Assembly (NCBI GenBank): GCA_030998015.1
Contig: JARWMV010000237.1
Coordinates: 1,612,001-1,676,000 of the forward strand
Source: Ceratorhiza oryzae-sativae
Taxonomy: Eukaryota; Basidiomycota; Agaricomycetes; Cantharellales; Ceratobasidiaceae
DNA length: 64,000 bases
Reading direction: 5' to 3'
Shown here: in pieces, positions 16,228 to 54,400 of the stretch
Layout of the letters: every line of letters begins with the position of its first letter
Position numbering within the stretch: the first letter of the stretch is position 1
Made by a program: the position numbers and the translations under genes
Notes under the pieces: model-generated
Seen by the model: the letters and a program-made list of their open reading frames with translations, nothing else
The model's database searches: none
What the model was told of the DNA's origin: nothing

Positions 16228-16589
16228 TGTCAACAACAACAAGTCAGGCAACAGGGAAAATGATAAGAAAAGAACTTGTATTCAACAAGAGGTCAAGTTC
16301 TTGAGGAGTCCTCTGCAAACTTGACCTGGTTTATATACATGATACAAGCCACATTGTAACAAACAAGTCCATATGGTGAGTCATGACCAATAAGAGATAG
16401 AAGCAACTGTGGAGCTGTGGAATTTCACATCAGAGTTGAAATACATCTTGGTCACTGGTCCAGAACATCCTTTGAGTCACATGACACAGATATACCATAA
16501 AAGGCAAGTATGTTTTGAAAATGATCTTGTAAAATGTAATAAATCAAGAAAATATTATAGAATGGATATATGCATGTCAGTTTGTGACA
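16228..16589 (-). repeat. 3' LTR of family B copy 1
   Basis: 362 bp, the same length as its partner at 24,899-25,260, from which it differs at seven positions. Six of these lie at decayed CpG sites. With CAGAC outside both LTRs this defines one insertion of 9,033 bp, including later passengers. Confidence 0.85.
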
Positions 16590-24898: not shown

Positions 24899-25260
24899 TG
24901 TTGATGACAACAAGTCAGGCAACAAGGAAAATGATAAGAAAAGAACTTGTATTCAACAAGAGGTCAAGTTCTTGAGGAGTCCTCTGCAAACTTGACCTGG
25001 TTTATATACATGATACAAGCCACATTGTAACAAACAAGTCCATATGGTGAGTCATGACCAATAAGAGATAGAAGCAACTGTGGAGCTGTGGAATTTCACA
25101 TCAGAGTTGAAATACATCTTGGTCACTGGTCCAGAACATCCTTTGAGTCACATGACACAGATATACCATAAAAGGCAAGTATGTTTTGAAAATGATCTTG
25201 TAAAATGTAATAAATCAAGAAAATATTATAGAATGGATATATGCATGTCAGTTCATGACA
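24899..25260 (-). repeat. 5' LTR of family B copy 1
   Basis: 362 bp, ending TTCATGACA before CAGAC (25,261-25,265). On its inner side the primer site (complement of 24,883-24,898) repeats sequence complementary to the RNA-start region of the LTR. Confidence 0.85.
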
Positions 25261-34000: not shown

Positions 34001-34163
34001 TCCCTGTAGCAGACAACCATGCAGAATGGCTCCAAAAGGGTCATGACAAACTTAAGGCTGCTCTGGAAATAGCAAACCAGAGGGTCAAAGAATATTATGA
34101 CCAGAAACATCAGGCCCCAGAAGCCATTAGGGTTGGAGACAAAGTCTGGCTTGACACCAAGAA
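31066..34163 (+). pseudogene. Family B Pol, copy 2, 3'-truncated
   Basis: Protease Asp-Ser-Gly-Ala-Thr-Ser (about 31,269). RT with IYMDNILVFSK at about 32,218, where the second Asp of YMDD is Asn. RNase H (FILETDASG). Integrase zinc finger and core (VVDCLTKM, ISDCGPNF, GQSERANQ). Stops at 31,440, 31,659, 32,520 and 33,234. It ends at Leu-Asp-Thr-Lys-Asn, where family C begins at 34,164, so the chromodomain is missing. Confidence 0.85.
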
Positions 34164-34916
34164 TGTTATGACCCACACTAATGGTCATAATGTAACAAGG
34201 AGTCTAGCCTGTAGTGTATAGCATTTTCCCCATGGTTAAAACAAGCTAGAAACAGGTCACATGACTCTGGCACTTACCATGGTGACCCAACTCACTCCTG
34301 CAATTCTCTCCTTTGTAACTTGGAGCAAGGAGCAAGTTGTCATGTGACTTCAGTGCTTACATGGGTGCTTACTGTGGTTACCCAACTTGCTCCTGCAATT
34401 CTCTCCATTGTAAATTGGAGCAAGGAGTGAGTTATCACATGACTTTGGCACTTAAACCACATGACCCATGGACCCTGTGTGACTCTATAAGATTCAGAGC
34501 TGCAACAACCCTAAGAGCAACTTACATAACTCCTCATGCTATCATGTGACCCCCAATCAACAATCACCCAGTGGCCCCTCATGTCACATGACCAGTAAAC
34601 ATTCTTGACTGTGGAACTGTCTGACTTGCCTCACACAAGGATATATAAGAAAACCAAAGCAAGGCTGATGGCCCCAGCTTGCTTTATCTTGTCAACCACA
34701 GGGGCCACTTGTACATAACACTAGATACATCAATATATACTATAGGAAAACACATAAGAACATAGCCACTACCTAAGGGATCAACAAGACAACAAAAGAG
34801 ATAGAGGGATCTTGACATTATAAAGCAAGCTTCACACTTAACTAGTGGTGAGACAGATATTTTGCACAAATATCAAGGGTTGAGTACAAGAGATACCAAC
34901 TAACCTCTGCGTTACA
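34164..34916 (+). repeat. 5' LTR of the family C element
   Basis: Starts TGTTATGACCCACACTAA inside family B pol. The partner at 43,875-44,528 matches up to the point where that one is cut. The 3' edge at GCGTTACA (34,916) is chosen by the CA end and is approximate. A TATATAAG box lies at about 34,641. No self-complementary primer site was seen, unlike families A and B. Confidence 0.75.
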
Positions 34917-34936
34917 TAAGAGAACAATCAGCAACT

Positions 34937-36841
34937 ATGGCACAGCAGAATACAGGAAGAGTTACTAGATCAATGAGCTGAGCAGCTAATCATCCACCAA
35001 CAGAACCCACACAACCCCTGCCACAGGTGGTACCTCAAGAAGAAGAACATACAGACACCACACTTACAGGAATTCCAGGAGGAATGCCCTGCACTAAGAC
35101 AGTGCCATTCTTCCAACGAATCCCCCAGAGACCAATCCATATTGGTAGTGAGCCACCAGAGGTAAGGCCTTCCCAAATACCACCAGTAACATCCCAGCAG
35201 GAACCAGTGGATGACTCAAGAGATGAGGTGGAGAACATGACCCACATCATGTATGAGCAGGGGGGCAAAATTCTCAATCCCAAAGAACCCAAAACTCCAA
35301 GGAATTTTTCTGAGCCACCAGAAACCACAACATCACAACCACCAGGGGGGAACCCACCCTGGAGAACCAGTAACCCTGTCCAAATAATTGCCACCACCCT
35401 AGGGGGCAGACTACTCACATTAAGGGAAAACACTCAGCATGAAATACAGAAGGCAATCAGGGCTACAGAGCTGAATTGGAGGGTCCTGGAACAACAAGAG
35501 AGGAGACTGAAGTAAATGGAAATTAATGTGGTGGGAGGACAAGACAATGCAGACATTGCTGCAAAAGCAGCCCAAAATGTGGAAGCAAACATCAAGAACC
35601 TGGAGGGACATATGGAAGGATGGAAGTCAACCATCCAAGAGGTAAATACAGCTATACAAGAACAGACAAAAGTGATACAGTCTACACACAGCCACTTGGA
35701 CCATTTAGAGGAGATCTCCACTGCCATTGAGCAGCAAACCACTGACATAGCAAATGAATTAAGGAGGGAAGCCCCCCCCATGGAGCAACTAACACCAGAT
35801 AGGGACAAACTTCCAACCCAACCAGGGTCTTGATTGTCCTCCCCAACCCCCTTTGCAAGGAGGTCATTCCAAAGGGAGTCCACAGTCAGGCCCTTAGCCA
35901 CACCAGTGGGTCAAGGCAGGAAGGAACCAGAAAACCCATCCTTTATGAATCAGACTACCCTAGCAGGTGCTACCATCCCCAAGGAGGCATGGGCAAAGAA
36001 ACCAGAGGCCTTCAATGGGAGGAAGGGCAAGGAGGCCAAAACATTTCTGACCAAAATGGAAATATACTTTGGGTACTACAAAGAAGGAACCTTCAACAAT
36101 AATAGGAAAATATCCATTACCTTAATGAACATGAGCAGTGGTGATGCAGCAAATTGGGCACAGCCATTCTTAAAGAAAATCTCCAACAAGGAGGACCATG
36201 AATTCTTAAGGTCTTGGTCAGCCTTCAAGGCAGCATTCCTAGGCAACTTCCAAGACCCTGTCAAGAAAGAAAAGGCAATTCAGCAACTAGGCAAACTAAA
36301 CCAAATCAAGAGTGCCCAATCATATGCCACCCAGTTCCACATTTTGGCACAAGTAGTAGACTGGAATGAAGATGCACTCATTGACAGGTTCAAAGAAGGA
36401 TTGAAACCAGAAGTCAGGCAGGAACTGCTGAGAATGTCTATGTATGGAGCAGGAAACCAACTGACCCTGGAGGAATGGATTGTGCTGGCATGCAGGGCAG
36501 ATGACCTAATATTTTCCAATAGAAAGCTCAACACAGGAGGAAGCACCAATCAGGGAGCCCCAAACTGGGGCTTGGCCAGCAGAACACCCCTTTGGGCCAA
36601 GGTCCAAACAGGGCAGAATGGGACATACACTGGTCACTGGCCAAGCAGTGCTGTCAGGATACCAAATGAGGAAAAAGACCAATGGAGAAAGGAGAAACTA
36701 TGCATCAAATATGGCAAGCCAGGACATGTGATGAAGGACTGCAGAGGACAATGGACCTACAACAAGGGCAAAATTGTGGGAAAGGCCAGCACTGAGAAGG
36801 AAACTAATGAACAAGAAACAGATTCAGAGTCAGAAAACTAA
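34937..36841 (+). pseudogene. Family C Gag
   Basis: ATG 34,937 is followed by a TGA at 34,979 (likely an old CGA), an open frame to 35,515, and a frame change at about 35,830 into 335 open codons. Parts: a Pro-rich N-terminus; a helical segment (EANIKNLEGHMEGWKSTIQE); the Gag core (AFNGRKGKEAKTFLTKMEIY...FKEGLKPEVRQELL); and a zinc knuckle CIKYGKPGHVMKDC, in which the second Cys is Tyr. Structural protein of the particle. It is about 630 codons with an unusually long N-terminal extension. Confidence 0.8.
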
Positions 36842-36858
36842 TAGGACCTACTGAATCC

Positions 36859-39800
36859 ATGTCAGTCGATCCAGTAAACACCCCAGTGGTCAATGTATAT
36901 TCCCTTAAGAAATCAAGTAACCAATCTATAATATACATGACTGTCAGGGAATCATGGAACCAGCTAGAACACTGATAGACCAGGATCCTCTTGTAATTTC
37001 ATGGACTCTGAATACATCAGAAGAAAGGGAATCCTAACAGAACCTCTCAAGGCTAAGAGGTCAGTGATTGCAATCGATGGGAAGGAAATCAAGGATGCAA
37101 TCTCAGATAAGGCTGAACTACAAATTGAGGTAGAGGGCAAAACACTAAAATGCACCTTCTACATAATGGACCTAGGGGACACAGAGGTAATACTGGGTAA
37201 AGACTGGCTGGAAGAAGCAGAACCAGTCATTAAATGGAAAGATCTGTTCATATTGTACAAGGACAATATTGTTGGCAAAGCAGCAGAAGAAGTACTGTTA
37301 ATTCCAGAGGAATTCAGGGATTTCATAGATCTGTTCCAGGAAGCAGGATTTAGCAAGCTCCCAGAGCACTGACCCTTTGACTGTGAAATAGAATTTGTTG
37401 AAGGAGCAGGACTCTCCAAACCAGCAAAGATATACCCAATGACCCCAGCTGAATCAGCAGCCCTAAAGGAGTACACAGACAAGGAACTTAGGGATGGAAA
37501 GATAAGGAGGAGCAAATCAACCATTGCAGCCCCATGCTTCTATGAGAACAAAGCAGATGGAGGTTTAAGGTTGGTAGTAGACTACTGGAAACTAAATGCC
37601 ATTACAAAGCCAGATCAATTCCCCATGCCAGTGCAAGAGGACCTTGTGGAGAAGCTAAAAGATGCCACAATATTTACAAAGATGGACATCCATTGGGGCT
37701 TCAATAATATATGGATAAAGGAAGGGGATGAATGGAAAACAGCCTTTAGGAACGAAATATGGGATCTTTGAATACACAGTAATGCCATTTGGACTAAGGA
37801 ATGGGCCCTCAATATGGATGTGATTCATAAGCTCCATATTTGAAGATCTCATAGATGTGTATATGGTGGTATACATGGATGACATACTAATATACTCCAA
37901 TAGTTGAGAGGACCACAAAGAACATGTGAGGGAAGTTCTGAGATGTCTCAGAAAGCATCACCTATTTTTGAAACCTCACAAATGCAACTTCTTCACAACA
38001 AGAACAAGCTTCATTGGAATTGTGATAGCCCCAGAGGGCATATTGATGGAGAAAGAAAAGATCAAGGCAATAGTGGAATGGAAGGAACCCACCACTGTCA
38101 AACAAACCCAATCATTCTTAGGCTTTGCAAACTTTTACCACAGATTTGTGCCCAACTTTAGCACAATAGCAAAGCCCCTGACAGAACTAACAAGGAAGGA
38201 TGCCAAATGGAACTGGACTACCCAAGAACAAGAAGTCTTTAATGAGATCAAGAAATCAATGGCAAGAGACCCAGTCCTCATACACCCAGACCCAAATAAG
38301 CCATACATTCTAGAAACAGATGCCTCAGGAGTAGCCATGGGGGCAGTCCTGAGCCAAAAGGGGGAAGATTGAAGGCTGCATCCAATAGCTTACTTATCAG
38401 AAAGCTTCACCCCACTACAAAGGAACTATGATACACACAACAAGGAGTTACTTGCAATAGTCTGGTCACTGGAGTATTGGAGACTGTTCCTGGAGGGAAC
38501 CAGAATACCCATTACAGTATATACAGACCATTGAAACCTCCAATATTGGCAGGAAGCCAAGATATGGAACAGAAGACATGCTAGGTGCCACCTGACCCTA
38601 GTATCATTTAATTTCCAAATTGAATACTGTCCAGGGAAGCTATCACAAAAACCAGATGCCCTGTCATGAAGGCATGACCATGAGGACACACCAAATGAGC
38701 CACAAGTCATGATATCACCAGACAGATTCATTGGATTCAAGGCAGAGGTAAGGACAAACTTCCTACAGGAAGTGAAGGAAGCACAGGAAGAGGACACATC
38801 AATATCAGGCTTGATGCAAAGCATGTCACACAAGGACAGTCTGCCACCAATGATAAGGAAGGAGCTCAAGCAGTACAGTATGGAAGATGGTCTGCTATGA
38901 TATGATGGGAAAATTTATATACCAGAGGACAGTAATTTATGTCTAGAAGTACTGGACAGACACCATGACTCACCAGTGGCAGGACACCAGGGGCATGCCT
39001 GGACCCTGGAGCTCATATCCAGGCAATGCTATTGGCCAGGATTGAAGGCACAGGTGAATAGATATGTAGACTCCTGTGAAGTTTGCCAATGAAGCAAGGG
39101 ACACAAACAACCAGCACCCCTTAAGCCCCTACCAATACCAGAGAAGCCCTGGGAGGACATAGCATATGACTTTATCATCAAATTACCAATATCAAGAGGC
39201 ATGATAGCATTTTGACAGTGGTGGACTGTTTCTCAAGACAAGCACACTTCATCCCACACATGGAATTGACCAATGCAGAAGACCTAGCAGAAATATTCAT
39301 CAGGGAAGTCTGGAAACTGCACAGAACACCTAAGACAACAGTATCCGACAGAGGACCCACATTTAACAGCCAATTCCTAAGGGCATTATACAAGAACTTG
39401 GGGATAGAACCTAGATACTCCACAGCTTTTCACCTGGAGACTGATGGACTGTCAGAAAGAACAAACCAATGGGTGGAGGGATTTCTGAGAACCTTCTGCA
39501 ATTACAGGCAAGATGACTGGGCAAAATGGCTGCCAATGGCAGAATTTTGTCACAACAACCACAAGAATACAGCCACAGGCCAATCAGCATTTGAAACAGT
39601 CTATGGCACTAAGCTAGCATGGGAAATTCTAAGCAGGACCAGCACAGGACAGGTGGTGCTGGGAGCAGAAATGATGAAGAACCACATGAAGAAGATATGG
39701 GACAAGGCTAAGGCAGCCATGGAAATCCACAAAGGCATAGAAGGTCAAGGGACAGAGTTCAAAGTAGGGGACAGAGTATGGTTAATGCTAACTAACCTAT

Positions 39801-40297
39801 CCACTAAACATCCCTCAAAGAAACTTGACAATAGGAAAGGGGGCCCTTTCACCATCATGGAAAAAATATCTTCACATGCATACCACCTGGATCTACCCAA
39901 AACAATCAAGGTACATAATGTATTCCACATAAACCTCTTATCCCCATTCAAGGAGGACAAAGATTTTGGAAGGACCCAGGCAAAGCCTCTGCCAATCATA
40001 ACAGAGGAAGGGCAAGAGGAATATGAAGTGGATCATGTGGTCAACTGGGAATGGTGGAAGGGTGAACTGTATTACCAGATCAGGTGGAAAGGGTATGATC
40101 CAATAGAAGACACAATGGAACGTGCCAGCAAATTTGCCAAAATGAATGAGGTGCTGGATGACTTGCACAAGCACCTACCAGATGCACCAATACCAGGACA
40201 GCAGAGTCATAGGATCAATGACTTGAGAAAGGGGGGAAGCAAGAACAAACAGATGAGGAGAAGGAATATAAGGCAAGGGAAGGGGGACAGGACTTAG
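36859..40297 (+). pseudogene. Family C Pol: protease, RT, RNase H, integrase, chromodomain
   Basis: Protease (catalytic Asp at about 36,979, frameshifted just after it). RT with VVYMDDILIYS (about 37,866). RNase H (ILETDASG, about 38,310; TDH about 38,527). Integrase zinc region (HDSPVAGHQGHAW...CEVCQ). Core with VVDCFSRQ, VSDRGPTF and LSERTNQ. Chromodomain YEVDHVVNWEWWKGELYYQIRW (split for length: it starts at about 40,021). Frameshifts at about 37,765 and 39,205. At least six stops are TGA, mostly where Arg (CGA) is expected. The last 361 codons (39,212-40,297) are fully open and end in a basic tail. Confidence 0.88.
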
Positions 40298-40355
40298 TGA
40301 CCTCCTCCTCACCATAACCATCCTACCAACACTAGCCCCCCCCCCAACCTTCACC

Positions 40356-41277
40356 ATGAACAACCACTACACCCCACTATCTGATGGATATGCAGCTTCA
40401 GTTGAAAGGACCCAATTGTGGAGGGGTAAGAAGTACCCTTTCAAATCAGTTGAAAACAGAGGGCCCTGGGTGGATGCCACCTATGGTCTTCACTGGAAGA
40501 AGTGAAGAGGTATGCACAAAGGATCCTTCCTGGGGCTAATCTAGACTATATTCCCTGGAAAGAAAGGGATGAGCAGAACTGGATCAACACACATGTATAT
40601 CTGGACCCAAATAGAGGCCCCCTCACATGGTGCCACTCAGGGGCACCAAAGATACAAAGAGCCATTATGTGCACCAAGATGTATGTAATAGATAACCTGG
40701 TTGGCTCCACAGTAGATGCAGTGGCCAAAGCAGCCAAGCAGCAGGGAAGGAATGGGCAACCAGCCATCAGCATGCCAAGGGAAGAAGGGGAGATAACAAA
40801 GGATATGGTGGATTGGCTGAACACATGAGTGAGGGAATGGCATGAACTACCACCTGCCCCATACTGGGGACTCCTTGAAGCAACAACAAGGGCAGACATG
40901 TACAACCTAATTGCCAGGAAGGAGGCCACCCCCAAAGATTTCAAAGACTGGCTACAGGTCCACCCCAGGGAGGAGGAAGAAGAACTACAAAAGCTTGGGG
41001 ATAGCATGAATCCCTAGTGCTTCTGGAAGGCAATGGGGAACCAGAAAAGGTGGCACCAAGACTTATGACAACTGGAGAATGGCAGGGGTTGGAGAACAAA
41101 GAAATGACAAGGGACCTGGAGGAAGCATCACAGGAGGAGCTGCAGCCACTCCTTGCACAGGGCCCCCCAAAACCAAAGAAAACCATAAATGATCCAGACC
41201 CTTACTTTCTCCACAAGTATCTCAGAAAACTAGTAAAATATATTCTGGTAATACACAATATCACCTCCATCTACTAG
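40356..41277 (+). pseudogene. Unknown sense ORF between pol and the Rep-like gene (cargo ORF)
   Basis: ATG 40,356 opens 49 codons. A one-base shift joins the frame at 40,502-41,016, which carries one in-frame TGA (40,826-40,828). A second shift leads to 41,017-41,277. It totals about 300 codons. The composition is protein-like: aromatic and charged in the first part (NLDYIPWKERDEQNWINTH), then acidic (PREEEEELQKLG). I recognise no domain. It follows pol by about 60 bp and ends 17 bp inside the convergent antisense ORF. It may be an accessory retroelement protein or part of a captured module. Confidence 0.5.
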
Positions 41278-41863
41278 AGGAAGCCTGTGAATAAGGCTTA
41301 TCAGCCTTCTGTTTGCTCTTTTTCAGAGGGACACGTCCAGTGGGCTGATCCTTAGAGGAATCACCCCTGGACCAGATCTGACCAGCAGAGGAGTGGGTAA
41401 GCCATGGTGCCTCCCCCCCTGGGTAATCACACATGAAGTTAGTGAGAGGCCCAGACCCCTCAGACCCAGAAGGTTCAGGGGGATGTGGAGTGGGAGCCCA
41501 GCCCTCCTCAAAGAACTCAGCAAGGGCAGCCAGGTGTTCAGCCATTTCCTCAGCACCTAACAGGGAAATGTTAACCAGGTTGCATGCCAAACAAAAAAAG
41601 AAGAGGAACATACTGGGAAGGCCCACTGTAAGCCAGTCACCCACACCACTTTCAAAGTTGGCAAGGGTGGCATTACAAATGGCAGCACAGTAGGCACAAT
41701 AAATCTCAGAAAGAAGAGACCAGCAAGTGCAGTCCAGTGGATCATAGTTAAGCGTGATACTGTGCATAATGAAGTGAATGAAAAGGAAGGGGGGGCCAGA
41801 GTTGCAAAGAAAAGCCCTGCATAGTTGGACAACAACACCAAACAACAAAACAATGAGCCACAT
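41261..41863 (-). CDS. Antisense membrane-protein ORF in family C
   Basis: 200 uninterrupted codons on the strand opposite gag, pol and Rep. Hydrophobic stretches at residues 2-18 (LIVLLFGVVVQL), about 27-40, 55-70 (rich in Cys) and 82-106 (MFLFFFCLACNLVNISLL) suggest three or four membrane segments. The rest is acidic, then Pro/Ser-rich, with a Lys-rich C-terminus (KKSKQKADK). In a region full of stops, an intact 200-codon frame stands out. No family recognised. Antisense ORFs are known in some plant Ty3/gypsy elements, but not with this neighbour. Chance openness cannot be excluded. Confidence 0.45.
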   Translation of the reverse strand: MWLIVLLFGVVVQLCRAFLCNSGPPFLFIHFIMHSITLNYDPLDCTCWSLLSEIYCAYCAAICNATLANFESGVGDWLTVGLPSMFLFFFCLACNLVNISLLGAEEMAEHLAALAEFFEEGWAPTPHPPEPSGSEGSGPLTNFMCDYPGGEAPWLTHSSAGQIWSRGDSSKDQPTGRVPLKKSKQKADKPYSQASSSRWR

Positions 41864-42160
41864 GACCCAGCCTAGTCACATGACCATACACTATCCTGTT
41901 ATACTGGAGGGGTCAGAGAGGGGGCACCGACCAGAGACAACAAGCAGAGGCCCTGAGTGTCAGTGAGGAAAAAGGCCAATGTGAGGAGCAAAGGAAGGGC
42001 ACCCCTCAGAGATGTGTCATCACCAACCAGAGGGGCAGTGTTGAAACAATCATGTGACCAGTAAACAATGAAAACAGAGTTATTAAAGGGGCAATGCCAA
42101 CTGGAGTGATATGTCACACCCATATGCCCACTCCCCAGCCATCCAATACTCAACTGTCCC

Positions 42161-42470
42161 ATGATGAACTTTATCAATAATGGACCAAGCAAGGGAACAC
42201 CAGAGCTAAGTGAGCAAGACAAACTACAGAGGTCAGTCTTGCTGTTGCCAGGGCCCTGGGAAGCAAGCCCACCCCCTGAGCTAAGTTCTTTGCAGCCTAC
42301 CTTGATGGATCCCAAGCCCAAAGAGCAGAGGTGGCAAGGGCAAAGCAGCACCAAGATGCTGAAATTTTATGTGCAATCTCAAGCAGCATTATTAACATGG
42401 AGTATGTTGAGGGACAAGCCAACATCAGGGCTAGTGGCTTGGTAAGCAGCCTGCTACAAAAGAAGCCTGG
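42161..42470 (+). pseudogene. Short unknown ORF upstream of the Rep-like gene
   Basis: Two overlapping plus frames (42,161-42,445 and 42,331-42,555) each read protein-like. One has DKLQRSVLLLPGPWE. The other has an alanine-rich helical run (AEVARAKQHQDAEIL). They look like one ORF with a frameshift near 42,280. No domain recognised. It ends just before the TATA-like run TTTTATATATGC (42,481) and the Rep-like ATG. Confidence 0.3.
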
Positions 42471-42488
42471 CAGAATAACCTTTTATAT

Positions 42489-43526
42489 ATGCATATACAT
42501 AGGTACAAGGCCTTCTGCTGGAGCTGGCCCAACCACTGGGCCACATTGGCAGTAGTAGGACAGCACAATGCTGAGGAACCAAACTACAACCCTGAGTACC
42601 CCCTCCACATCCACACCCTAACAATCAGCTAAGAATGCAAGGGTGGATGGAACACCCAGAACACCAGATTCTGGGACTTTGAGGGGAATCACCCCAACAT
42701 CCTGCCAAAGGATCTAAAGGATGGACTGGGGGGGAATCTGGCACAGGATGCCTTCAACTACCTATGGAAGGCTGTGGGGGAAAATGGGGAGGAAGTGGAA
42801 GATCTGATGACAGGGGATCTGACCCTTGAAGGATTGGAGGAGATTCTGCAAAAGGGACAAGGAGGAAAGCAATCAAGGCAACAAGCAGACCTGGAGGATG
42901 GGGAGGAGATTGTAGTGGCTGCCACCAAGGAGGAGTTTTACCACACATACAAATGACTCCAGCCCCTTCAACTAACAACAGCATGGAACTCTGTATGTGC
43001 ATATGCAGACTATACATACAAGAAGGATGCAGGACTCCTTGAGGCAATTCCAGTGGAACTGGAGATACCAGGGGAGAGGGGGCATGTAGACCAGGTGGAC
43101 AAGTGGTTCAGGGAGGAAATGCAGGAAAGAAGGGCAGGAATGCAACACTGCATCCTAGTAATTGAAGGAGAAGCAGGAACAGGGAAGACAGCCTATGTGC
43201 AATCAAAGGGGTCCCACAGCCAAATGTGCAACACATGGAATGTGGGTGCATTGTCAGAAGAGGCTGACATCTGGATCCTGGATGATATGGTGGCCACTAA
43301 TGGCAAATACTCACTCAAGGCTCTGAGCCAGTATGAAGCAGACTTCACAGGGTGCTACAGCCATGTGAAAACTATGAAGGTCCAGCCAACCATCATACTG
43401 GGCAACAGCCAGACAACCATCACCAAATGCTGGTCTGACATAGAAGGAGAGGAAGGAGAAAGATGGGTGGCAAAGAATGTGGAATGGGTAAACTCAGGGA
43501 GCCTGCTGTTCTTTGTATTTCCATAA
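42489..43526 (+). pseudogene. rep-like: CRESS-DNA Rep-like protein: HUH endonuclease plus SF3 helicase
   Basis: A single frame of 345 codons from ATG 42,489 to 43,526, broken only by TAA 42,630 and TGA 42,954. In order: motif I-like FCWSWPN (residues 9-15); motif II LHIH (39-42, metal-binding His pair); geminivirus/genomovirus-type block RFWDFEGNHPN (60-70); motif III YLWK (91-94, nicking Tyr and Lys); Walker A GEAGTGKT (227-234); Walker B WILDD (262-266); motif C ILGN (303-306). Such proteins nick and unwind circular DNA to start rolling-circle replication in geminiviruses, genomoviruses and related plasmids. Length matches viral Reps. The spacing between motifs I and II is short. It lies between pol and the polypurine tract of family C, on the pol strand. 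No origin nonanucleotide was found beside it. Confidence 0.85.
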
Positions 43527-43647
43527 AATACTATGTATTGGGTATTGCATGCCAGCATTAGAAGCCTAACCAGATAAGACAAGCCCAGGCATGTCAAAAC
43601 CATGGTGGCAAGCAAGGGGAGGATAAATAACCTCATGTAGTGTAAGG

Positions 43648-43735
43648 GTTAAGGGACCTGGCCTGATGTGACTTACCTCATCCAAATGAACCACTTCAGG
43701 TCAAGGGTTGTGAGTTCAAGTTCAGCACCCTTAAC
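43648..43735 (+). other. tRNA-like 88-nt segment (possible class II pseudo-tRNA)
   Basis: GTTAAGGG (43,648-43,655) pairs with CCCTTAAC (43,728-43,735). TGGCCTGATGTG resembles a pol III A box. GAGTTCAAGTTC (43,712-43,723) resembles a B box with its CpG decayed. An 88-nt length would suit a Ser or Leu tRNA. I could not fold a convincing anticodon arm, so this may be a tRNA-derived remnant or coincidence. Confidence 0.3.
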
Positions 43736-43860
43736 CCCCTCAATGCATGAGATTTACCCCTTTTTTTTATGGGAAAGAAGGCTAACAAAAAGAGGGGGGG
43801 GGCATGAGGCCAGGGAACAACAATGAGTGTTACATCTTGAAATCCTCCAAGATGCAAGTG

Positions 43861-43874
43861 AAAGAGGGGGATAA
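43861..43874 (+). other. Polypurine tract of family C
   Basis: AAAGAGGGGGATAA ends exactly at the TGTTATGACC start of the 3' LTR, the expected place for plus-strand priming. It shows that the cargo region (40,356-43,860) lies inside the element and not beyond it. Confidence 0.7.
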
Positions 43875-44528
43875 TGTTATGACCCAAACTAACAGTTATA
43901 ACATAACAAGGAGTCTAGCCTGTAGTGTATTGCATTTTCCCCATGGTTAAAACAAGCTAGAAACAGGACATGTGACTCTGGTGCTTACCATGGTTACCCA
44001 ACTCACTCCTGCAATTCTCTCCTTTGTAACTTGGAGCAAGGAGCAAGTTGTCACATGACTTTGGCACTTACATGGGTGCTTACTGTGGTTACCCAACTCA
44101 CTCCTGCAATTCTCTCCATTGTAACCTGGAGCAAGGAGCAAGTTATCATGTGACTTGGGCACTTAAACCACATGACCCATGGACCCTGCATGGCTCTATA
44201 AGATTTGGAGCTGCAACAACCCTAAGAGTGACTTACATAACCCCTCATGCTATCATGTGACCCCCAATCAACAATCACCAAGTTGCCCTTCACATCACAT
44301 GACCAGTAAACATTGTTGACTGCAGAACTGTCTGATTCACCTCACACAAGGATATATAAGAAAACCAAAGCAAGGCTGATGGCCCCAGCTTGCTTTATCT
44401 TGTCAACCACAGGGGCCACTTGTACATAACACTAGATACATCAATATATACTATAGGAAAACACATAAGAACATAGCCACTACTTAAGGGATCAACAAGA
44501 TGACAGAAGAGACAGAGGGGTCTTGACA
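43875..44528 (+). repeat. 3' LTR of family C, truncated
   Basis: The first 654 bp of the LTR, about 90% like 34,164-34,817 by eye. The last 100 bp are replaced at 44,529 by a family D LTR end, so no target duplication can be read. Confidence 0.8.
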
Positions 44529-44680
44529 ATTAAGACTACCTTGAGTGTTACTTGATTGCATTGCAACTACTTTGGGCCTTCTTACTCTAGTCTAAGAAGT
44601 ATTGAGTACAATTAGTGTATACTAAGATATCTACACTTGCTTAAGCTCTAGATATTCTAGTGTACCCTGACCCATAACAG
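44529..44680 (+). repeat. Family D LTR 3' end fragment
   Basis: 152 bp matching the terminal 150 bp of 23,476-24,782 and ending CATAACA. It is cut on the left at the family C LTR junction. Confidence 0.7.
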
Positions 44681-44854: not shown

Positions 44855-45229
44855 TGTTGACAACGACAAGTCAGGTGACAAGAAAAATAGTAAGAAAAGA
44901 AAAGAACTTGTATTTGATGAGAGGTCAAGTTCTTGAGGAGCCCTCTGCGAACTTGACCTGGTTTATATACATAGTACAAGCCACATCATAACAAACAAGT
45001 CTGTACAGTGAGTCATGACTGATAAGAGATAGAAGCAGTAGAAGCAACTGCGGAACTGCGGAATTTCACATCAGAGTTGAAATACATCTTGGTTGTCGGT
45101 CTGGAACATCCCCTGAATCACATTACACAGATATACCATAAAAGGCAAGTATGTTTGAAGCTGGTCTCATAAAATGTAGTAAATTGAGAAAATATTATAG
45201 AGTGGATATATGCATGTCAGTTTGTGACA
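44855..45229 (-). repeat. 3' LTR of family B copy 3
   Basis: 375 bp. It differs from the 5' LTR (51,072-51,446) at 13 positions, 12 of them at present or inferred CpG sites. CTGCC lies outside both LTRs (44,850-44,854 and 51,447-51,451). Confidence 0.9.
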
Positions 45230-48200
45230 CTTCCCCCCTTCAAGGCACAGGGGTCATGGGGTGCCTTTGGGTGTGACTTGACGTAGTCGGCAATGAGTTC
45301 TGGTGTGTTCACCAGGTCATCATAGGTTAACCATTGTCACTTGTTGTAGCCAAGCCACTTGACATAGTATTCAAAGATGTTAGATCTTTTGTTGTATCGT
45401 GACTTTATGATCTGTTCCACTTCAAATTCTTCTTCCCCTTCCAGAGTTACCACAGGTGGTGGTGGGGGAACCTGATGGCCATAGGGGTTGTCTTTATATT
45501 TGGTGAGGAGTGAGACATGAAACACTGGGTGTATTTTCATGGTTATCGGTAGGTCCAGTTTGTAGGCATGTGTGCTGTGTTGTGCTACCACCTTGAATGG
45601 TCCAACTCTTTTGTGGGCCAGTTTCCTGGAGGCCTGCTGTGTCTGTATGTTTTTGGTATCAAGCCAGACTTTGTCTCCAACCTTAATAGCTTCAGGAGTC
45701 TGATGCTTCTGGTCATAGTATTCCTTGATCCTCTGGTTTGCTATTTCCAGGGCTGCCTTAAGTTTGTCATGGCCCTTTTGGAGCCATTCTGCATGGTTGT
45801 CCGCTAAAGGGAGTTCTGGTTCCTCCCTGTCCCCAACTGCTAGCCTTGGGTGGAAACTGTAGTTTGCAAAGAATGGTGATTTGCCAGTTGAGGTGTTGAC
45901 ACCATTATTGTAGGCAAATTCAGCCAATGGTAGGAGCAAGACCCAGTCGTCTTGTCTGTCTGATACATAGTGTCTGATGTACCCTTCCACTACTTGCTTG
46001 GCCTGTTTGGACTGGCCATCTGTCTGAGGGTGGTATGCTGTGGAGTAGGAGGGTTTTATATCCAGTCGTTTGTATAAGTGCCTTAAGAATTTGGATGCAA
46101 AGTTGGGGCCGCAGTCTGAGATTGTTTTCTGTGGTACCCTGTGAAGTTTCCATACATATGTTAGGAACAAGTTGGCGCAATCCATAGCACTGGCTTCCAA
46201 TTGACATGCAATAAAGTGGACCATTTTTGTCAGGCAGTCAACAACTGTAAATATGGTGTCAAACCCCTCTGACAGGGGTAGCCCAGTGATCAGATCATAA
46301 GTAATTTCCTCCCAAGGTTTTTCTGGCACGGGTATTGGGTTTAGGAGCCCTGGGGGAACTTGGTTGCTGTGCTTGTTCCTGATGCATGACTTGCAGTGTG
46401 TGACGTATTCGTTGACTGATTTTTTCATTGATAACCATGTGTATTTGCAATTTAACAATTCATATGTTCTGAACTGTCCTGGGTGTCCTGCTGCTGGGCT
46501 GTCGTGACGGCTTTCGATGACCAGTTTGCAAAGTTCTTTGTTATTTGGGACATAGATTCTGCCCTTGTGTTGTAAGAGTCCTTCATCCCATTCCCAATCT
46601 TTGACCTTCTCATAGTCATCTAGGGCTTTTAGGACTTTTGATAGGTGTTTGTCCCCTGGGATAGCATCCCTAATGAGTTGTTCCAGGTCATTGTCTGGCG
46701 TGATTGCTTGCAGGCATAGCGATTTCAGCTCCAAAAATTGGTTTTGCACAAGCAGAGCTTGGCTCTCGCCCCCCTCTTTAGGGATGTGTCTTGACAGCCT
46801 AGAGAGTATGTATGCCCAGCCATTCTTTGCCCCTTCAATATATAGAATCTTGAATTCGAACCTGGATAAGAACTCATGCCACCGTGTGACTTGGCCATTC
46901 AGTGGCCAATTCGTCTTCCAATACTCCAAATTCTTGTGGTCACAAACAATGTTTACTGGGTGTTCGGCCCCTTCTAGCAAATGACGCCAGTGTTTGAGGG
47001 CCTTTATAATTGCCAGCATTTCTTTGTTGTAGATATCATAATTTCTTTCTGCTGGGACCATTGCCTTGGAGTAATAGGAAATCAGGTGGAGCATTCCGTC
47101 CTCTCCATATTGCAATAATACAGTGCCTGTGGCATAGCCTGAGGCATCTGTTTCCAAAATGAATGGTTTGTTGGGTTCTGGCTGAATTAGGAGGGGGGCT
47201 TCTTTTAATTTCTGCTTCAGCAGGTTCCATGCCTGATCCCTTTCTTCTGTCCATTCCCATTTTACATCCTTCTTGACAAGTTCATAAAGACATCTTGTAA
47301 TTTTCAAAAAGTCTTTTATGAAGTGCCTCAACCAATTTGCAAACCCCAACCCTTCCAGGACTTTGGTTGGGTTGGTAGGGGTTGGCCATTCAACAGCTTT
47401 TTCAACCTTGGCTGGGTCTACTTTAATTCCCTGGGGGGTCACTACTATTCCCAGGTAATCAACTTTGGTGACATCGAAAACACATTTCTCCAGGGCGCAA
47501 TATAGGCCAGCTTTTTGGAGATGACGTAAGACTTCCTTTACATGTTCATCATGTTCTTCTTGGTTTTTGGAGAATACTAATATGTCATCCATATAGATTA
47601 CAACATAAATGCCCTTGATGTCTTGGAACTCTTCCCAGATCATGGCCATGAAGGTTCCCAGTGCGTTCTTTTGACCAAATTGCATGACTAAGGGCTCGTA
47701 CAGCCCATATTTGGTCTTAAAAGCTGCTTTCCATTTGTCCCCTTCCCGAATTTGTATGAGGTTGAAGCCCCACTTTAGATCAAACTTGGTGAATATCTTT
47801 GCCCCACACAGAGTCTCCACAATATCATTGATGCGTGGGAGTGGGTACACATTAGAGACTGTCATTTCGTTTAGTCACCAGTAGTCAATGCACATGTGCA
47901 ACTTCCCATTCTTCTTTTTGACAAATATGACTGGGGATGCCATTGGTGACCTTGAGGGTCTGATATGCCCTGCTTTCAGTTGGCGATCCAAGGTTTTGCG
48001 CAATTCTGCATCTTCCTTGACACCCACACTATATATTGGGCCATGCCTTGGCTTGGCATCTGGTTTTAAATCTATTTCCATATCCCACTTCCTATGGGGT
48101 GGTAACAGCTGGATGTCATCTTCTTCAGCAAATATTTTCTTGAACTCCCTGTATTTGGTTGGGAGGGAATCTAAAGAATCCAACTGGAGCTCCTTGGGTT

Positions 48201-48747
48201 CGTTTGCTTGCACATGTAGGGGTTTTGTAATGCAGTGTTTCAAGCATATTGGCAAGTTGAACTTCATATCTTTCCCCTCCCAATCAATGTCTGGGTTATG
48301 GAATTTGAGCCACGACATGCCCAGAACTAGATCATTTTTGCCAACATTCACAATGTAGGCACTGAGGATCTCTCAGTGCTCTTGAATACACAACTCAAAG
48401 GTGCAGTAATGGGTCACAGACCCAGAGTCTATCTCCCTTCCATTGATTACCCTCAGTTTCTTGGGTGTTTTTAGGATGACGGTAGGAATACAGTATTGTT
48501 TAACCAAATCTTCATGTATAAATACTGACGTGGCCCCTGAGTCAATCATGGCCCATCCATTGAATTTTTTCATGTTATATGCAGACTTGCATTTGGGGGT
48601 TATGCGCAGAGGGAATGCATGAAAGAAAAACTGTAGTTGTGATTGGTTTCCTAACAACATACATTCCATTTCCATATTTTTATTTTCATTATGCGCATTT
48701 TGTAACATAGCACCCAAGACCGCCCCCCTGGCATGGTTTGAGCTCAT
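45217..48747 (-). pseudogene. Family B Pol, copy 3 (nearly complete)
   Basis: Starts at the ATG that overlaps the gag stop (ATGA). Protease with IDSGATSVF (about 48,545). RT with VVIYMDDILVFSK (about 47,588). RNase H with FILETDASG (about 47,140). Integrase zinc region (HDSPAAGHPG...CKSCIRNKH), core VVDCLTKM, ISDCGPNF and GQSKQAKQ, and chromodomain FEVEQIIKSRYNKRSN. The main open block is 842 codons (45,337-47,865). Breaks at 45,336 (TGA for Arg), 47,866-47,875 and 48,352-48,373. In the core the usual Ser-Glu-Arg is Ser-Lys-Gln, so the catalytic Glu is lost. The end of pol runs over the polypurine tract (45,230-45,243) into the LTR. Confidence 0.9.
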
Positions 48748-50131
48748 TCTTTTACTGACTCATTGTCAGTTGTTTCTACATCCTCAACCACTGCCTCGTA
48801 TCCTGACATCTTAGCTGAGGGGCATTTGGCTGCAATATGACCCCGTCCTCCACAGTTATAGCAGGTGTTTGTCCCCTTTCCTTTTCCTGCACTATCCAGA
48901 TCCATTGCGTCTGGATCCTTTGCCTTGGGGGCTGCTGGTGGATGGTTATCCTTCTTTATGTCCTTGAAGGATTCTTGTATGTTGGCATTGCTGCCATTGT
49001 AGCGGACAGTTGGAACTGTGAAACCCTTCGCATTGGGCCCAATGGCCACAATCTGGCCTTTTACAGCTCTCCCGTCCTTAATCTTATATATCCGTTCCCC
49101 ATTTTTGAATTTCTCCTTTTGGGGAGTGCTTTGGGGGTTATTGGTCGGCCTACTGGATGAGGCATTGCTGCTGGGCTTGTTACTCCCATGAGACGTTCAT
49201 TTGCTACCAAACAAGATGAGGTGGTGGTCAATTTCCAGGGCTTGCTGAGTGAGTTGGGCAAAGGTTTTGGTGCAGGGGTCATAGTTTTGGGCCACCATGC
49301 TATCTGTTACATCTGACGATAGACCATCATAGAACTGATCACGCATGGCAGCATCGTTGTAGTTGAGACCTGTGGAATATAGGTTGAATAAGGTGAGGTA
49401 ATCCTGAACTGTCTTGGATTGTTTCAGTTTCTGCCACTTGTCGCAGTTATTTTTGGTGCGATTCAGGTCTCCATAACAGGTAGTAAATTCTTGCCAGAAC
49501 AGATTGGCATCATGAAGCCAGGGGATCACAGTTCCAGGGTTAAAATTTTGAATTCTTCATACGAGTTGACCCATTTGGCTGCTGATCCTTCAAGATAGGA
49601 TGTGATAAATGCGACCACTTGGTCAGCTGAGTGCCCACTCATATTTGTATTGATGTATCAGGCACATGCAATCCTGAATGAGATGGCTTCCTCATGCTTT
49701 GTGCCATCAAACTTTTGGGGAGCCGCCATCTTGACTTTTACAGCTGATCCGCCAGTGGTAGCAGTAGCTGTTGGCTGTGGTTGGGTCACACCAGTGGTTG
49801 GTTGTGCTTGGGTGGCACCTGAGCCACCTGATGAGGTGTTTATTTGTGCTTCAATGCATGTGATAGATGTTTGAAGTATTGCTAACATGCCCACAAGGTT
49901 ATTGACACTGGTGGCCAGTCCGGCCACATCGGCATCTATTTTTGTCTGGTTGGTGGTGAGTTTTGCTTTGAGCGTATCTGTGTACATCTTATTGTTATGT
50001 TCTACATCTCCAATGTCATTTTGGAGGTTGTTGGTTCGTTCTTGTAATTCATCCATTGACTGGAGCATATAGATGACCTTTTCCCCATCAGACATATTTG
50101 CCCAAGCAGGGGTAGAGGGTTGTGACGCCAT
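48744..50131 (-). pseudogene. Family B Gag, copy 3
   Basis: Start MASQPSTPAWANMSDGEK, coiled coil (LQERTNNLQNDIGD), Thr/Gln-rich linker and capsid-like core (FWQEFTTCYGDLNRTKNNCDKW). The zinc knuckle CYNCGGRGHIAAKC is intact. Breaks at about 49,658, 49,540 and 49,197. The stop overlaps the pol start. Confidence 0.82.
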
Positions 50132-50154
50132 TTCAGAGAAGATTTGGTAAAATT

Positions 50155-51054
50155 CTAAAGACGACAGAGATGATAAGGAAGTACAGGGAATTGGGAATTG
50201 TTTTGATAGTAGAGGATTTCTGTTCCCTGCACAAGTCTATAAACTTCAAAGTTTCTGATTCCCGCGAACCTTAACCAAGTATCGTCCAGGTCCCAACTTT
50301 TGGTGTCTTGGCAACAATATGGGCACTCCACCCTCTTCAGTTTAGTTTGGTCCTGAAGGAGTGCTTCCTTGGGGAGAATTGATTTGGGCTGCTGGAAGGG
50401 GTGCTTCTTCCTGAGTTGGCAAGCCCGTGCCACTTAGAAAGGTAGGGTGAGGGAGGTCTGACAGTGTTGAGAAGATGGGGAAGGCGTACTTGTGGGGTTC
50501 AATTGTTTCTTGGACTATAGCTTCTAGTCTGAGATGGTCTTGGAGGAGGGATAGGTAGTCCTCCTGGTGTTTGTGCAAACGCTCAGTTAAGTATGCGCAA
50601 CGGGCCTTGGCTTTGTGAAGTTTTTCACAGGTTTCTTTGTACTTATTCTGGTAATAATGGTACTTGTCTTGGAAATTTTTGATAGTGTTTAGCAGGTGAT
50701 GGAGAAGCTGTTGGCCAAGGTTCTCCAGCTTATAGCTGGTTGTGGGGGATGGTGTAGTAGTAAAGGAATTTGTCCTTTTTAGGACAATAAGGGCAGCACA
50801 CTGGGAAGGTGGCTCCGTTTGCCCAATGGCAGATTTTGCACTCAGGGGCACCTGGCTTGGTGACAAAGGCTTGTTGGGTGCATCCAACCTTTTGGGGGTG
50901 GACTTTGATAATTACTACTCAGTTGAAATCAATGTGCCCAGCTTCTTCAAGGATGCTTTTGACTGAGTTGAGGGTGAAGCAGTGGATCAACAGGTGTCCA
51001 AACCACCCACACAAATGGCAGCGCTGGTCTTCTGTAAAAGGTTGTGCCAGATTG
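50155..51054 (-). pseudogene. Family B ORF1, copy 3
   Basis: Begins directly inside the primer site with no clear ATG. Knuckle CHLCGWFGHLLIHC (about 51,000), CKICHWANGATF and CPYC pairs, then 181 open codons (50,342-50,887) with the helical stretch NKYKETCEKLHKAKARCAYL. The tail reads YQNNSQFPVLPYHL. Present in all three B copies in the same place, between LTR and gag. Function unknown; nucleic-acid binding is likely from the zinc motifs. Confidence 0.65.
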
Positions 51055-51071
51055 TCAAGAACTTGACCTGA
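51055..51071 (-). other. Self-primed primer-binding site, family B copy 3
   Basis: On the minus strand TCAGGTCAAGTTCTTGA touches the LTR end. Its 15 bases AGGTCAAGTTCTTGA are the exact complement of TCAAGAACTTGACCT in the same LTR (complement of 51,139-51,153). These lie about 30 bp after the TATATAAA box (complement of 51,179-51,186). Confidence 0.75.
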
Positions 51072-51446
51072 TGTTGACGACAACAAGTCAGGTGATGAGA
51101 AAAATAGTAAGAAAAGAAAAGAACTTGTATTCGACGAGAGGTCAAGTTCTTGAGGAGCCCTCTGCAAACTTGACCTGGTTTATATACATAGTACAAGCCA
51201 CATCATAACAAACAAGTCTGTACAGTGAGTCACAACTGATAAGAGATAGAAGCAGTAGAAGCAACTGCAGAACTGCGGAATTTCACATCAGAGTTGAAAT
51301 ACATCTTGGTTGTTGGTCTGGAACATCCCCTGAATCACATGACACAGATATACCATAAAAGGCAAGTATGTTTGAAGCTGGTCTCATAAAATGTAGTAAA
51401 TCGAGAAAATATTATAGAGTGGATATATGCATGTCAGTTTGTGACA
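51072..51446 (-). repeat. 5' LTR of family B copy 3
   Basis: 375 bp, ending TTTGTGACA before CTGCC (51,447-51,451). It contains the TATA box, an 11-bp inverted repeat and the RNA-start segment used for self-priming. Confidence 0.9.
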
Positions 51447-54400
51447 CTGCCAAGCTGTTTGTGGGAGCCAATACAGAGCTGGCTTGGGCAGGAGAAGCAG
51501 AAGTTGAGAAAGGGAGGCTTGTTTCAGGCACAGTGTGCTTTGAAGCAACAACCAACTGTTTGTTGTTGGAGGTTTCTAAGTCTGAGGGACCATTGGGGCT
51601 GCTCCAAGAGTGAGTAAGGAAGTTGTTTCTGAGCATTGAGAGAACCTGATCAGGGGGATTTGGGCTGTAATGGGAGCCAGTCTTGAGAGCCTATTTCACC
51701 AGCAGGTGAGCATAAACATCAATTAGCTAGCTTGTAAGTTGACTTACCAAGAGCCTAGCCCATAACTCCACACACTCCTCAGTGAGTGGAACATGTACAG
51801 GATCCCTTCCTGGAAGTGGAACAATTCCACAATTCTTGTGGCAGGTCCTACACTTGGGGCATTGGTACTTGATGAACTCATAGGCATGCTGCTGTGGCAA
51901 ACTTGTGTTTTATTTCTTGTTAGCCTGTCTCAAGTCAGCTAGCTAGAACATAGGGAAAATATGAGTAATAAAATACCTTTGACTTTGATCCTTCTCCCTG
52001 CTTGCCTTTGGTATTAGATTTTGACTTGGCAAGGTCAACAATTGTGATCATATAAGTTTTGATTTTGTTAGTCAGCTGGTCATGCTGAGCTACCACCTGC
52101 ACTCCCATCCCACATGCTGCCTCTAACTTTGCAACAGTTGCATCAACACCTTTGTGAGCTAGAGACACCACCCCCTGATAGTGAGCAATTGTTTTCAGAT
52201 GACTTGGAAATGCAGACTTTTTTGCCCCTGGCATTCTGTCGGCACACTTCATGTTGCTGATTGATTTGTCCAGAAGTATGGCCATGTTGAGCTGGAATGC
52301 ATTGTATTCAGTGTTGTGAGCAACTTTGATTGTCTTGTGAGCACTGTCAATCTCAACAGCAAATGCCAAGTGAGTGATCTCAACCTTCATCTCTGTTCAA
52401 AAATGTCCATCAACTCATCAACTCAGCCAATTGTGATATGAGTCAAAAGGCCATACCATCAACTTTGTGTTCCTCCTCATGGTACTCATTGTACTCATCT
52501 TCATTTGAGTCTTCTCCATGCTCTACTTCAGGCTGGGCTTTAGGTGGGAATAGCAATCCCAATAACTTCAGAGTCAACTTCAGGTGTGGCTTTGGGGGTT
52601 TGTCTTGTGTAGTTGTTTTCTTAGACTTAGGCCCCAACAACTTTGACTTAGAAGGTTGCTGAGTCTTAGGCTGAGGTTGAGTCTTAGGATTTGGGGTTTC
52701 CATTTTCCTTGGCTGTCTGCACTTTGGTTTTGTGACAGGGGGAGTGTTTGATGGGGCTTGAGCAGTTGGTGGAACCTGGGACACCTTTCTAGAGCTCCAA
52801 GTCATATGTCAATTTCTGTTGCTGTAAGCTACAGGAATTTAGGTGTGTTCAGTTATTTGCATGTCTATCCTTTCTAATTTACTTACTTTTCTCAATCCCA
52901 TCATCCCCTTTCTCCTTGGTCATTGATTCTGCTTCCAGTTCACTTGGCAGAACGTCAACAAACTTGATGCAGCTCTCCTGTGAATTGAAGTATTAGATTT
53001 CAATTGGGATAATATGAGAAAGGTTGCACATATGTTTGTGTTTGCTGTCAGAGGTTGTGGGGGTGGAAAAAAGAATGAACTGTCTGCTAGAGATGTCACC
53101 TGAGAAACATGCAGCTGGCATAGCAGTGTTCTGCAGGCAAAAATACCTGCAAATACCTGCTGCAGGGTGCAGGTGTGGGTGCAGGTATGGCCCAAAACCT
53201 GCAGGTAACCAGGCAGGTAACCTGTGGTAACCTGCAAACAAGTGCCTCCATACCCACAGATACCTGTGCAGTGAGAGCAGCAAGAATGGCTGCAAGAGTG
53301 GAATGAGGTAACACAAAAGTTGCCACACTTGTTTTTAAATAGCACCATTAAAAAAATATAGTGAAAATCTAGCTTTCTAACTGCATATACAACATAGGCG
53401 ATAAAAAATTTCTAAGGGAGGATTGCAAGCAAACATGTTCAGAAAATAATCCCCCCAAAGTGCAGACTAGTGGCCACTTTCAAAACTCACCAAATACTTA
53501 ACATATATATATCATTAGATGCGCATGAGTTAGGAGAGCTCAAATATACTTGTTTCAGCTTCATAGCATTACTGTAGCAAAAGCTATAGGGGAAATACAG
53601 GGGGGGAAACCCCTAACAGTCCAAAATCTACTAGTGAATCCCACTGTGCAAATGCTGCTCCCTCGTACTAGATAGATGCGATAGGTATAAGAGATGCTAC
53701 CTACAAAATTTCTGCTCATTTGGACAAGATTTAGAGGGTGAAACAGAGGAAGCATACCCCTTAGTACTGAAATTACACCTGAATCCCCTCTCCAGCATGT
53801 CTGAGGGAGTTTGAAGGTTTTCTGATGATCCAGGTGGACTCAGAGCACCTTATTACTGTAGTAAAGTGACCTGTAATGCTCATCTACATGTCCATTTGGT
53901 GAGTTTGCTTGTCCTGACCCAGGGGAACTGGGCATCAGCTGGAAATCATGGGAGAGGGAGTGAGTTCACCTACATGGGACATAGTTATGAGTGCAATGCT
54001 ATATAATATAGGGGTTTTCTAACACTCTGAGTCCACTGGAACCATTATATTTGCTTGGAAATGCCTCCTTGACATTGAAATCAGGGTTGCACATATTTGG
54101 GGATGATTTTCCAGGACAAAAGCTGTGCAATCTCATGACTGGGATTTTTCGCACATGTGATACATATATGGTTGAAAAGCTGTGAATTTTGCGCACTTTA
54201 TGAGTACATAGGCTAACAGTTGTGATGAGTTTTGCAAAAGTGTCCCCCTTTTAATGGATTCACCTCCACACTGTTTGGACTGCAACAGGTGCTAGAATGT
54301 TTTGTACAGGATGTGTTATATCATTAGAAATCTATGAATTTTTCCTATTTTATGGTATATACATTGTAAGCTTGCAGTGACACTTAACCATGGGTATACC

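Follow-up and report, generated by a model that had tools for sequence, protein, structure and literature searches.

Extra genes and Rep proteins in mobile elements

An HUH Rep joined to a helicase is encoded by Helitrons, eukaryotic transposons that have no LTRs, gag or pol. The element described here resembles them in that a eukaryotic transposon appears to encode both activities, but LTRs, gag and pol are all present in it. The nearest Rep-bearing fungal element is a TIR transposon of Tuber melanosporum which carries a geminivirus-like Rep and for which, in the accessible text of the report, 42 Rep genes or remnants are described (PMC3198968). As in our case, a Rep-like gene was multiplied within a fungal mobile element. 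According to the same text, however, the Tuber element has 37-bp TIRs, transposase ORFs and an interrupted Rep (PMC3198968), whereas the element analyzed here belongs to the LTR retrotransposons, has a target-site duplication and carries a Rep frame that is open in many copies. The other side of the comparison involves LTR lineages that keep an extra gene, as this one does: LTR elements of bdelloid rotifers contain a captured ORF3 downstream of pol (PMC5408684), and captured AlkB was found in orchid LTR elements (PMC9289625). The captured proteins mentioned in the accessible portions of these two reports are env-like proteins, GDSL esterase, DEDDy exonuclease and AlkB; Rep is not named there (PMC5408684, PMC9289625).

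Capture of extra genes by LTR retrotransposons and the presence of Rep genes in DNA transposons are therefore each already known. Among the matches listed in searches of the open-access literature, we found no paper on Rep within an LTR retrotransposon and nothing relevant on Rep in Rhizoctonia or Ceratobasidium elements. Our analysis makes it likely that chromoviruses of one lineage, resident in Ceratobasidium-type fungi, acquired a CRESS-type Rep and kept it as a third gene under purifying selection. If so, an RNA-based parasite has been combined with the protein that initiates replication in ssDNA viruses, and a retroelement has become the long-term home of a virus-type Rep; two very different genome parasites appear to have merged.

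Structure of the element

The window, a stretch of 64,000 nucleotides, corresponds to positions 1612001-1676000 of contig C237 in the Ceratorhiza oryzae-sativae genome (48.8 Mb in 253 contigs). It contains a chromodomain Ty3/gypsy element at 34164-44528 (+) which has a complete structure but is dead. The following features were identified:

34164..34817, + strand: 5' LTR, starts TGTTATGACCC, ends TTGACA, 92% identical to the 3' LTR
35834..36838, + strand: gag (Retrotrans_gag 3.2e-14, Ty3_capsid 1.2e-10)
36968..37369, + strand: aspartic protease (RVP_2 2.2e-05)
37373..38369, + strand: reverse transcriptase / RNase H, broken into 37373-37768 and 37908-38369
39170..40294, + strand: integrase core, SH3_Tf2-1 and chromodomain
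40454..40825, + strand: fragment of an extra frame, no Pfam domain; counterparts of 251 aa (L041) and 301 aa (L039)
42179..42441, + strand: putative exon 1 remnant of the Rep-like gene with motif I ALLTWS, start approximate
42442..42502, + strand: intron-like interval, 61 nt, GT-AG, whose 3' part is the "TATA-like run" discussed below
42503..43526, + strand: putative exon 2 of the Rep-like gene, two internal stops; motif II, GRS-like block, motif III, Walker A, B and C
43860..43874, + strand: purine-rich tract adjoining the 3' LTR, read directly in the sequence
43875..44528, + strand: 3' LTR, 654 nt, pairs with the 5' LTR

The order of gag, PR, RT, RNase H, IN and chromodomain, all in broken pieces in the window, and the TG start and CA end of the LTRs (654 nt each) are those of chromoviruses. 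What distinguishes the element from chromoviruses is the Rep-like gene and a further frame before the 3' LTR. In a related Rep-less Ty3 element of the same window (44855-51460, - strand), by contrast, the end of pol adjoins the LTR. This second element has a pol frame open over 844 aa; its two LTRs share 96% identity across 300 nt, and its RT is 43% identical to that of the Rep-bearing family.

No target-site duplication was seen at the ends of the window element (AAGAA at 34159-34163 versus ATTAA at 44529-44533). CpG is nearly absent from the element, with an observed/expected ratio of 0.02, compared to 0.24 in the whole window and 0.81 in the Rep of one open copy, and we therefore regard it as an old copy that has decayed. 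Among the matches listed, the stop seen most often in broken copies of Rep was TGA, as would result from CpG decay.

Several other repeats and frames were observed in this region. The extra frame between chromodomain and Rep, which occupies L039:5290-6192 (301 aa) in one relative and has similar sequence at 40454-40825 of the window, is possibly a further gene of the element. Direct repeats of 300 nt at 16236-16535 and 24907-25206, which are 100% identical, are perhaps the LTRs of a young insertion. A dispersed repeat of 150 nt lies immediately 3' of the 3' LTR (44529-44679) and occurs again in the window around 13, 18.7 and 24.6 kb, as well as within four loci elsewhere in the genome (L008, L015, L024 and L038).

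The Rep-like gene of the window and its intron

The original prediction described a 345-codon frame with two stops at 42489-43526 that carries the hallmarks of a rolling-circle Rep and lies between pol and the 3' LTR on the sense strand of a Ty3/gypsy element. The frame is real (internal TAA at 42630, TGA at 42954 and a final TAA), all of the motifs claimed for it (LHIH, RFWD..HPN, YLWK, GEAGTGKT, ILDD and ILGN) were present, and both the upstream domains and the LTRs agree with the location. Its proposed start and promoter fared differently: the ATG at 42489 falls within the 61-nt intron-like interval at 42442-42502, and the upstream TATA-like run is part of this interval, which begins with GTAAGC and ends with ACATAG. 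Upstream of it, a tblastn search that used the N-terminal part of one open copy as query revealed a remnant of exon 1 from about 42179 that contains motif I, ALLTWS. The window frame is the decayed second exon of the Rep-like gene.

A TATA promoter 5' of Rep was considered and dropped in favor of an intron, since the diverged subfamilies keep the interval and the open family is without it. GT...AG intervals of 61-63 nt occur at the same place in seven other loci belonging to diverged subfamilies (L002-L008; L015 was left out of the scoring), and the interval was absent from all 35 distinct open-family loci scored, 34 of which had no extra base and one of which had a single base at this position. 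The predicted proteins of two metagenome relatives, P0050 and P0065, contain an insertion at this position, as expected from an intron that was translated unspliced. From these comparisons we read the interval as a probable intron. Its distribution suggests an ancient intron that has disappeared from the open family, a loss that fits reverse transcription of spliced RNA; gain of the intron in the diverged lineages is the other possible reading. The occurrence of the intron in diverged subfamilies only may be a record of a reverse-transcribed spliced message.

Copies in the same genome

The Rep-like gene was detected at about 165 places in the source genome, based on merged matches of two half-gene searches; this number is a lower bound, in which one copy split by an insertion may be counted twice. 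Genome searches scored the best 40 of 177, 150 of 193, 98 of 255, 81 of 1259, 40 of 644, 150 of 205 and 40 of 666 candidates, and because only the best candidates were scored, all copy numbers are lower bounds. At least 151 matches were obtained with the 189-aa third piece as query and at least 99 with a 429-aa open copy. Among the 99 matches listed for the latter query, 31 were free of stops and had an open frame of 426-454 aa, although three of these match only part of the query, including the copy on contig C240, in which the stretch from motif I to motif II is out of frame.

The position of the gene within the element was constant. Of the 49 distinct copies in which the 3' end of Rep could be read (duplicates merged; L005, which has no Rep 3' end, left out), 47 have a 3' LTR that begins 242-352 nt past the stop codon of Rep, the two exceptions being L004, with partial LTR matches and no LTR start, and L007. 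Using the RT of a relative as query, we found that 58 of the 83 RT matches listed (two of which are second pieces of the same RT) are followed in the same orientation by a Rep start 4.0-6.5 kb further downstream, compared to 1 of 166 control placements. For 16 further matches Rep was farther off (6.5-18.4 kb), which nested insertions could explain. The remaining 9 had no Rep among the matches listed, and one of these (C10:393817) has Rep in another search; a few element copies without Rep may exist.

Several copies contain the whole structure. A complete element at C240:415875-426640 has LTRs at 415875-416750 and 425765-426640 that enclose both RT and Rep, and it is flanked on both sides by AGAAG, a 5-bp target duplication, which shows that the Rep-containing element transposed as a unit; this is the only copy outside the window for which both flanks were read. 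LTR pairs enclosing RT and Rep were also found on C22 and C57, and LTR pairs around Rep of the window type on C12, C20 and in the window itself. In L039, gag, protease, RT/RNase H, SH3, chromodomain, the 301-aa frame, a 429-aa Rep and an LTR follow one another within 10 kb; the integrase core gave no match among its frames scanned with Pfam. L041 is 95% identical to L039 over most of its length and its gag was confirmed by Pfam. Both have a broken pol and an open Rep.

These data also bear on the mobile unit itself. A Helitron-like or Tuber-type Rep transposon could be nested inside the LTR element, and a TIR transposon with a geminivirus-like Rep does exist in Tuber, as stated in the accessible text of the report (PMC3198968). 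We regard such nesting as extremely improbable here: in loci L016-L038, element sequence was present 5' of Rep in 19 of 23 cases and an LTR 3' of Rep in 23 of 23, and the constant spacing between Rep and LTR together with a target duplication outside the LTRs indicates that the LTR element is the mobile unit. Residence of Rep as cargo of an LTR element, which the original prediction had proposed from the single copy, is thus borne out by the same position in other copies, many of them open, and by a complete element with its duplication.

Relatives in other genomes and selection on the gene

Ceratobasidium sp. AG-Ba, 395 and 428 have relatives of 427-429 aa; shorter relatives come from Ceratobasidium sp. 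394, 414 and UAMH 11750 and from metagenome records. Ceratobasidium species also provided the closest named proteins among the matches scored. All relatives with an NCBI name are annotated as "hypothetical protein", and one JGI record is annotated as a Cdc6-like AAA ATPase.

The Rep-like gene is under purifying selection. For 14 distinct open ORFs (22 before merging), mean dN was 0.0275 and mean dS 0.165, a ratio of 0.17, and the median pairwise dN/dS was 0.24, the restriction to open copies biasing the ratio downwards. Variable sites in these 14 ORFs were distributed over the three codon positions as 54/60/149. The pair L039 and L041 is a weaker selection signal than this set, with a dN/dS of 0.37 for Rep and 0.46 for RT. 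Of six comparisons between subfamilies, five had a saturated dS.

A different history would be the chance integration of one ssDNA virus genome into one retrotransposon copy, followed by passive spread. The window copy is dead, and among the candidates scored its closest kin are broken too: the copy on C12 (99% identical) is split into frames of 173 and 189 aa, and those on C20, C90, C30, C14 and C241 have 1-4 stops in the third piece of Rep. Rep-like integrations are also known in fungi, as the accessible text of the Tuber report describes (PMC3198968). Nevertheless, such a history is very improbable given the number of places, the constant position before the LTR, the presence of at least 31 open frames, purifying selection, and relatives in several Ceratobasidium genomes. 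As an account of the present state, a virus genome sitting in one retrotransposon copy is refuted by the roughly 165 places and the constant position. Capture followed by retention as an element gene is the reading we prefer.

Identity of the protein

Motifs I-III of HUH endonucleases are defined as UUTU, HUH and YxxK in the accessible text of a published account (PMC6668415). All six relatives examined contain the corresponding strings FLTW/LLTW, LHVHA/LHIHA and YLWK in this order. The complete order kept in relatives is motif I (LLTW/FLTW), motif II (LHVH/LHIH), RFWDFEG.HPNI, motif III (YLWK), and Walker A, B and C, the latter three with the patterns GxTGTGKT, [IV]LDD and ILGN; the RFWD..HPN block is GRS-like. 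The real Walker A site was picked in 5 of 6 relatives, the pick in P0050 being a chance string upstream. The frame is more than chance, as seen from some 165 relatives in the same genome, the occurrence in other Ceratobasidium genomes, and the result that 0 of 20000 shuffles of the full-length relative P0028 kept the six degenerate motifs in order.

Conservation was high at the predicted catalytic residues, although the background in same-genome copies is also high (mean 0.92): the HUH histidines and the Tyr and Lys of motif III were unchanged in 48 of 48 source-genome copies that cover them, the Walker A Lys was present in 49 of 50 and the second Asp of Walker B in 48 of 50. In a cross-species set, the first and second His were found in 16/16 and 15/17 sequences, and the Tyr and Lys in 16/17 and 17/19.

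The original prediction took the frame for a Rep gene of CRESS type. Searches with Rep domain HMMs do not bear this out at the profile level, as the window's own pieces of the gene had no match and relatives matched only Gemini_AL1_M, below the cut-off. The best match was on P0038 (residues 182-278, profile positions 11-106 of 107, E = 0.001), with 19.5 bits compared to a cut-off of 24; the match on P0058 had an E-value of 0.0045. Members of three overlapping sets of relatives were matched in 5 of 18, 7 of 10 and 8 of 21 cases. The match extends from past the endonuclease motifs through Walker A, which is where Gemini_AL1_M is expected in a geminivirus-type Rep, the P-loop supplying part of it. 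Families unrelated to Rep, Jiv90 and P53_TAD, appeared at E about 0.005 on single relatives, and four shuffles scanned with Pfam gave no match. Searches of source-genome Rep copies with PF00910, PF08283 and PF00799 detected nothing, the last two having been run without a positive-control match.

Profile searches of the PDB returned P-loop or chance matches and no Rep. AlphaFold2 models from 40-row and 21-row alignments had a pLDDT of 36 and 34, too low to be meaningful. With two family profiles, no relative was confirmed in IMG/VR, where two degenerate HPNI patterns hit 5 and 22 contigs as raw pattern matches; a plasmid collection yielded three matches, all by chance. No protein named as a virus Rep was found among the scored candidates, many of which are unnamed.

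An alternative is that the gene encodes a P-loop ATPase of other origin (STAND/AAA-like) with HUH-like motifs by coincidence. The P-loop family nSTAND3 matches weakly in more members (14 of 18 and 11 of 21 relatives) than does Gemini_AL1_M, and no Rep domain scored above its cut-off. However, the nSTAND3 matches cover only the P-loop and 20-40 residues, whereas the Gemini_AL1_M match lies where it should and extends over about 97 residues, and the HUH, HPN and YxxK motifs are conserved and in order. Such an origin seems improbable to us. The Rep identity is partly established by the ordered motifs and the weak match to the central domain, and in terms of likeness the protein is very probably a CRESS-type Rep. 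We call it Rep-like rather than a proven member of the family because no Rep domain HMM passes the cut-off.

The resemblance to Reps of Geminiviridae and Genomoviridae lies in the order and kind of motifs and in the Gemini_AL1_M match. In contrast to CRESS viruses, the carrier is a retroelement, and no above-cut-off domain, capsid or nonanucleotide origin was found. CRESS-type capsids were absent among the frames of the window element and L039 scanned with Pfam. The pattern NANTATTAC, the canonical CRESS origin nonanucleotide, was absent from both strands of L039 and had one reverse-strand match in the window element.

Possible role of the Rep-like protein

The captured gene would encode a geminivirus/genomovirus-like HUH endonuclease with an SF3-type helicase, retained between pol and the 3' LTR as the third gene of the element. 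A spliced or an internal message might be the source of its protein, which would then enter the nucleus and there nick and unwind DNA, activities which we favor because both the nuclease and the ATPase residues are conserved. The most likely substrate would be the element's own unintegrated or integrated DNA, with a higher copy number as the outcome; alternatively, the protein may act on host DNA replication or silencing in a way that favors the element. The element's own DNA would be the most economical substrate, but a role in replication or silencing of the host has almost the same likelihood.

The geminivirus Rep is known to change host functions of plants, such as cell cycle and silencing. 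A Rep that serves the element purely by altering the host, rather than via element DNA, would be consistent with the strong CpG decay of old copies (0.02 in the window element versus 0.81 in the Rep of an open copy), since anti-silencing would pay under such decay. On the other hand, the catalytic residues are kept, though many roles of this kind would not need them, and we consider an exclusively host-directed function unlikely, if plausible. Action on the element's own DNA could take the form of element cDNA, either circular or integrated, being nicked by its own Rep at the LTR or a nearby origin and amplified by the rolling-circle mechanism. This specific scheme is doubtful. If it were true, the element would multiply by reverse transcription and also by DNA nicking. 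The finding would make it testable whether a retrotransposon also copies itself as DNA, and the material is ample, given the number of places, the open frames and the relatives in other Ceratobasidium genomes.

With regard to a candidate origin, hairpins in tandem repeats of the LTR are only a lead. The covariation count in these hairpins was fuzzy and too loose to show covariation, stems of 9 bp were absent from the window LTRs, and the LTRs of two other elements tested carry palindromes of their own. The 878-nt LTR of L039 (L039:8940-9817) contains units of about 100 nt that are repeated in tandem and carry palindromes of two kinds, CGGCGCTTA/TAAGCGCCG, which occurs five times, and CTCGCTCCAG/CTGGAGCGAG, which occurs four times. 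Among the matches listed, other copies seem to have fewer of these tandem units.
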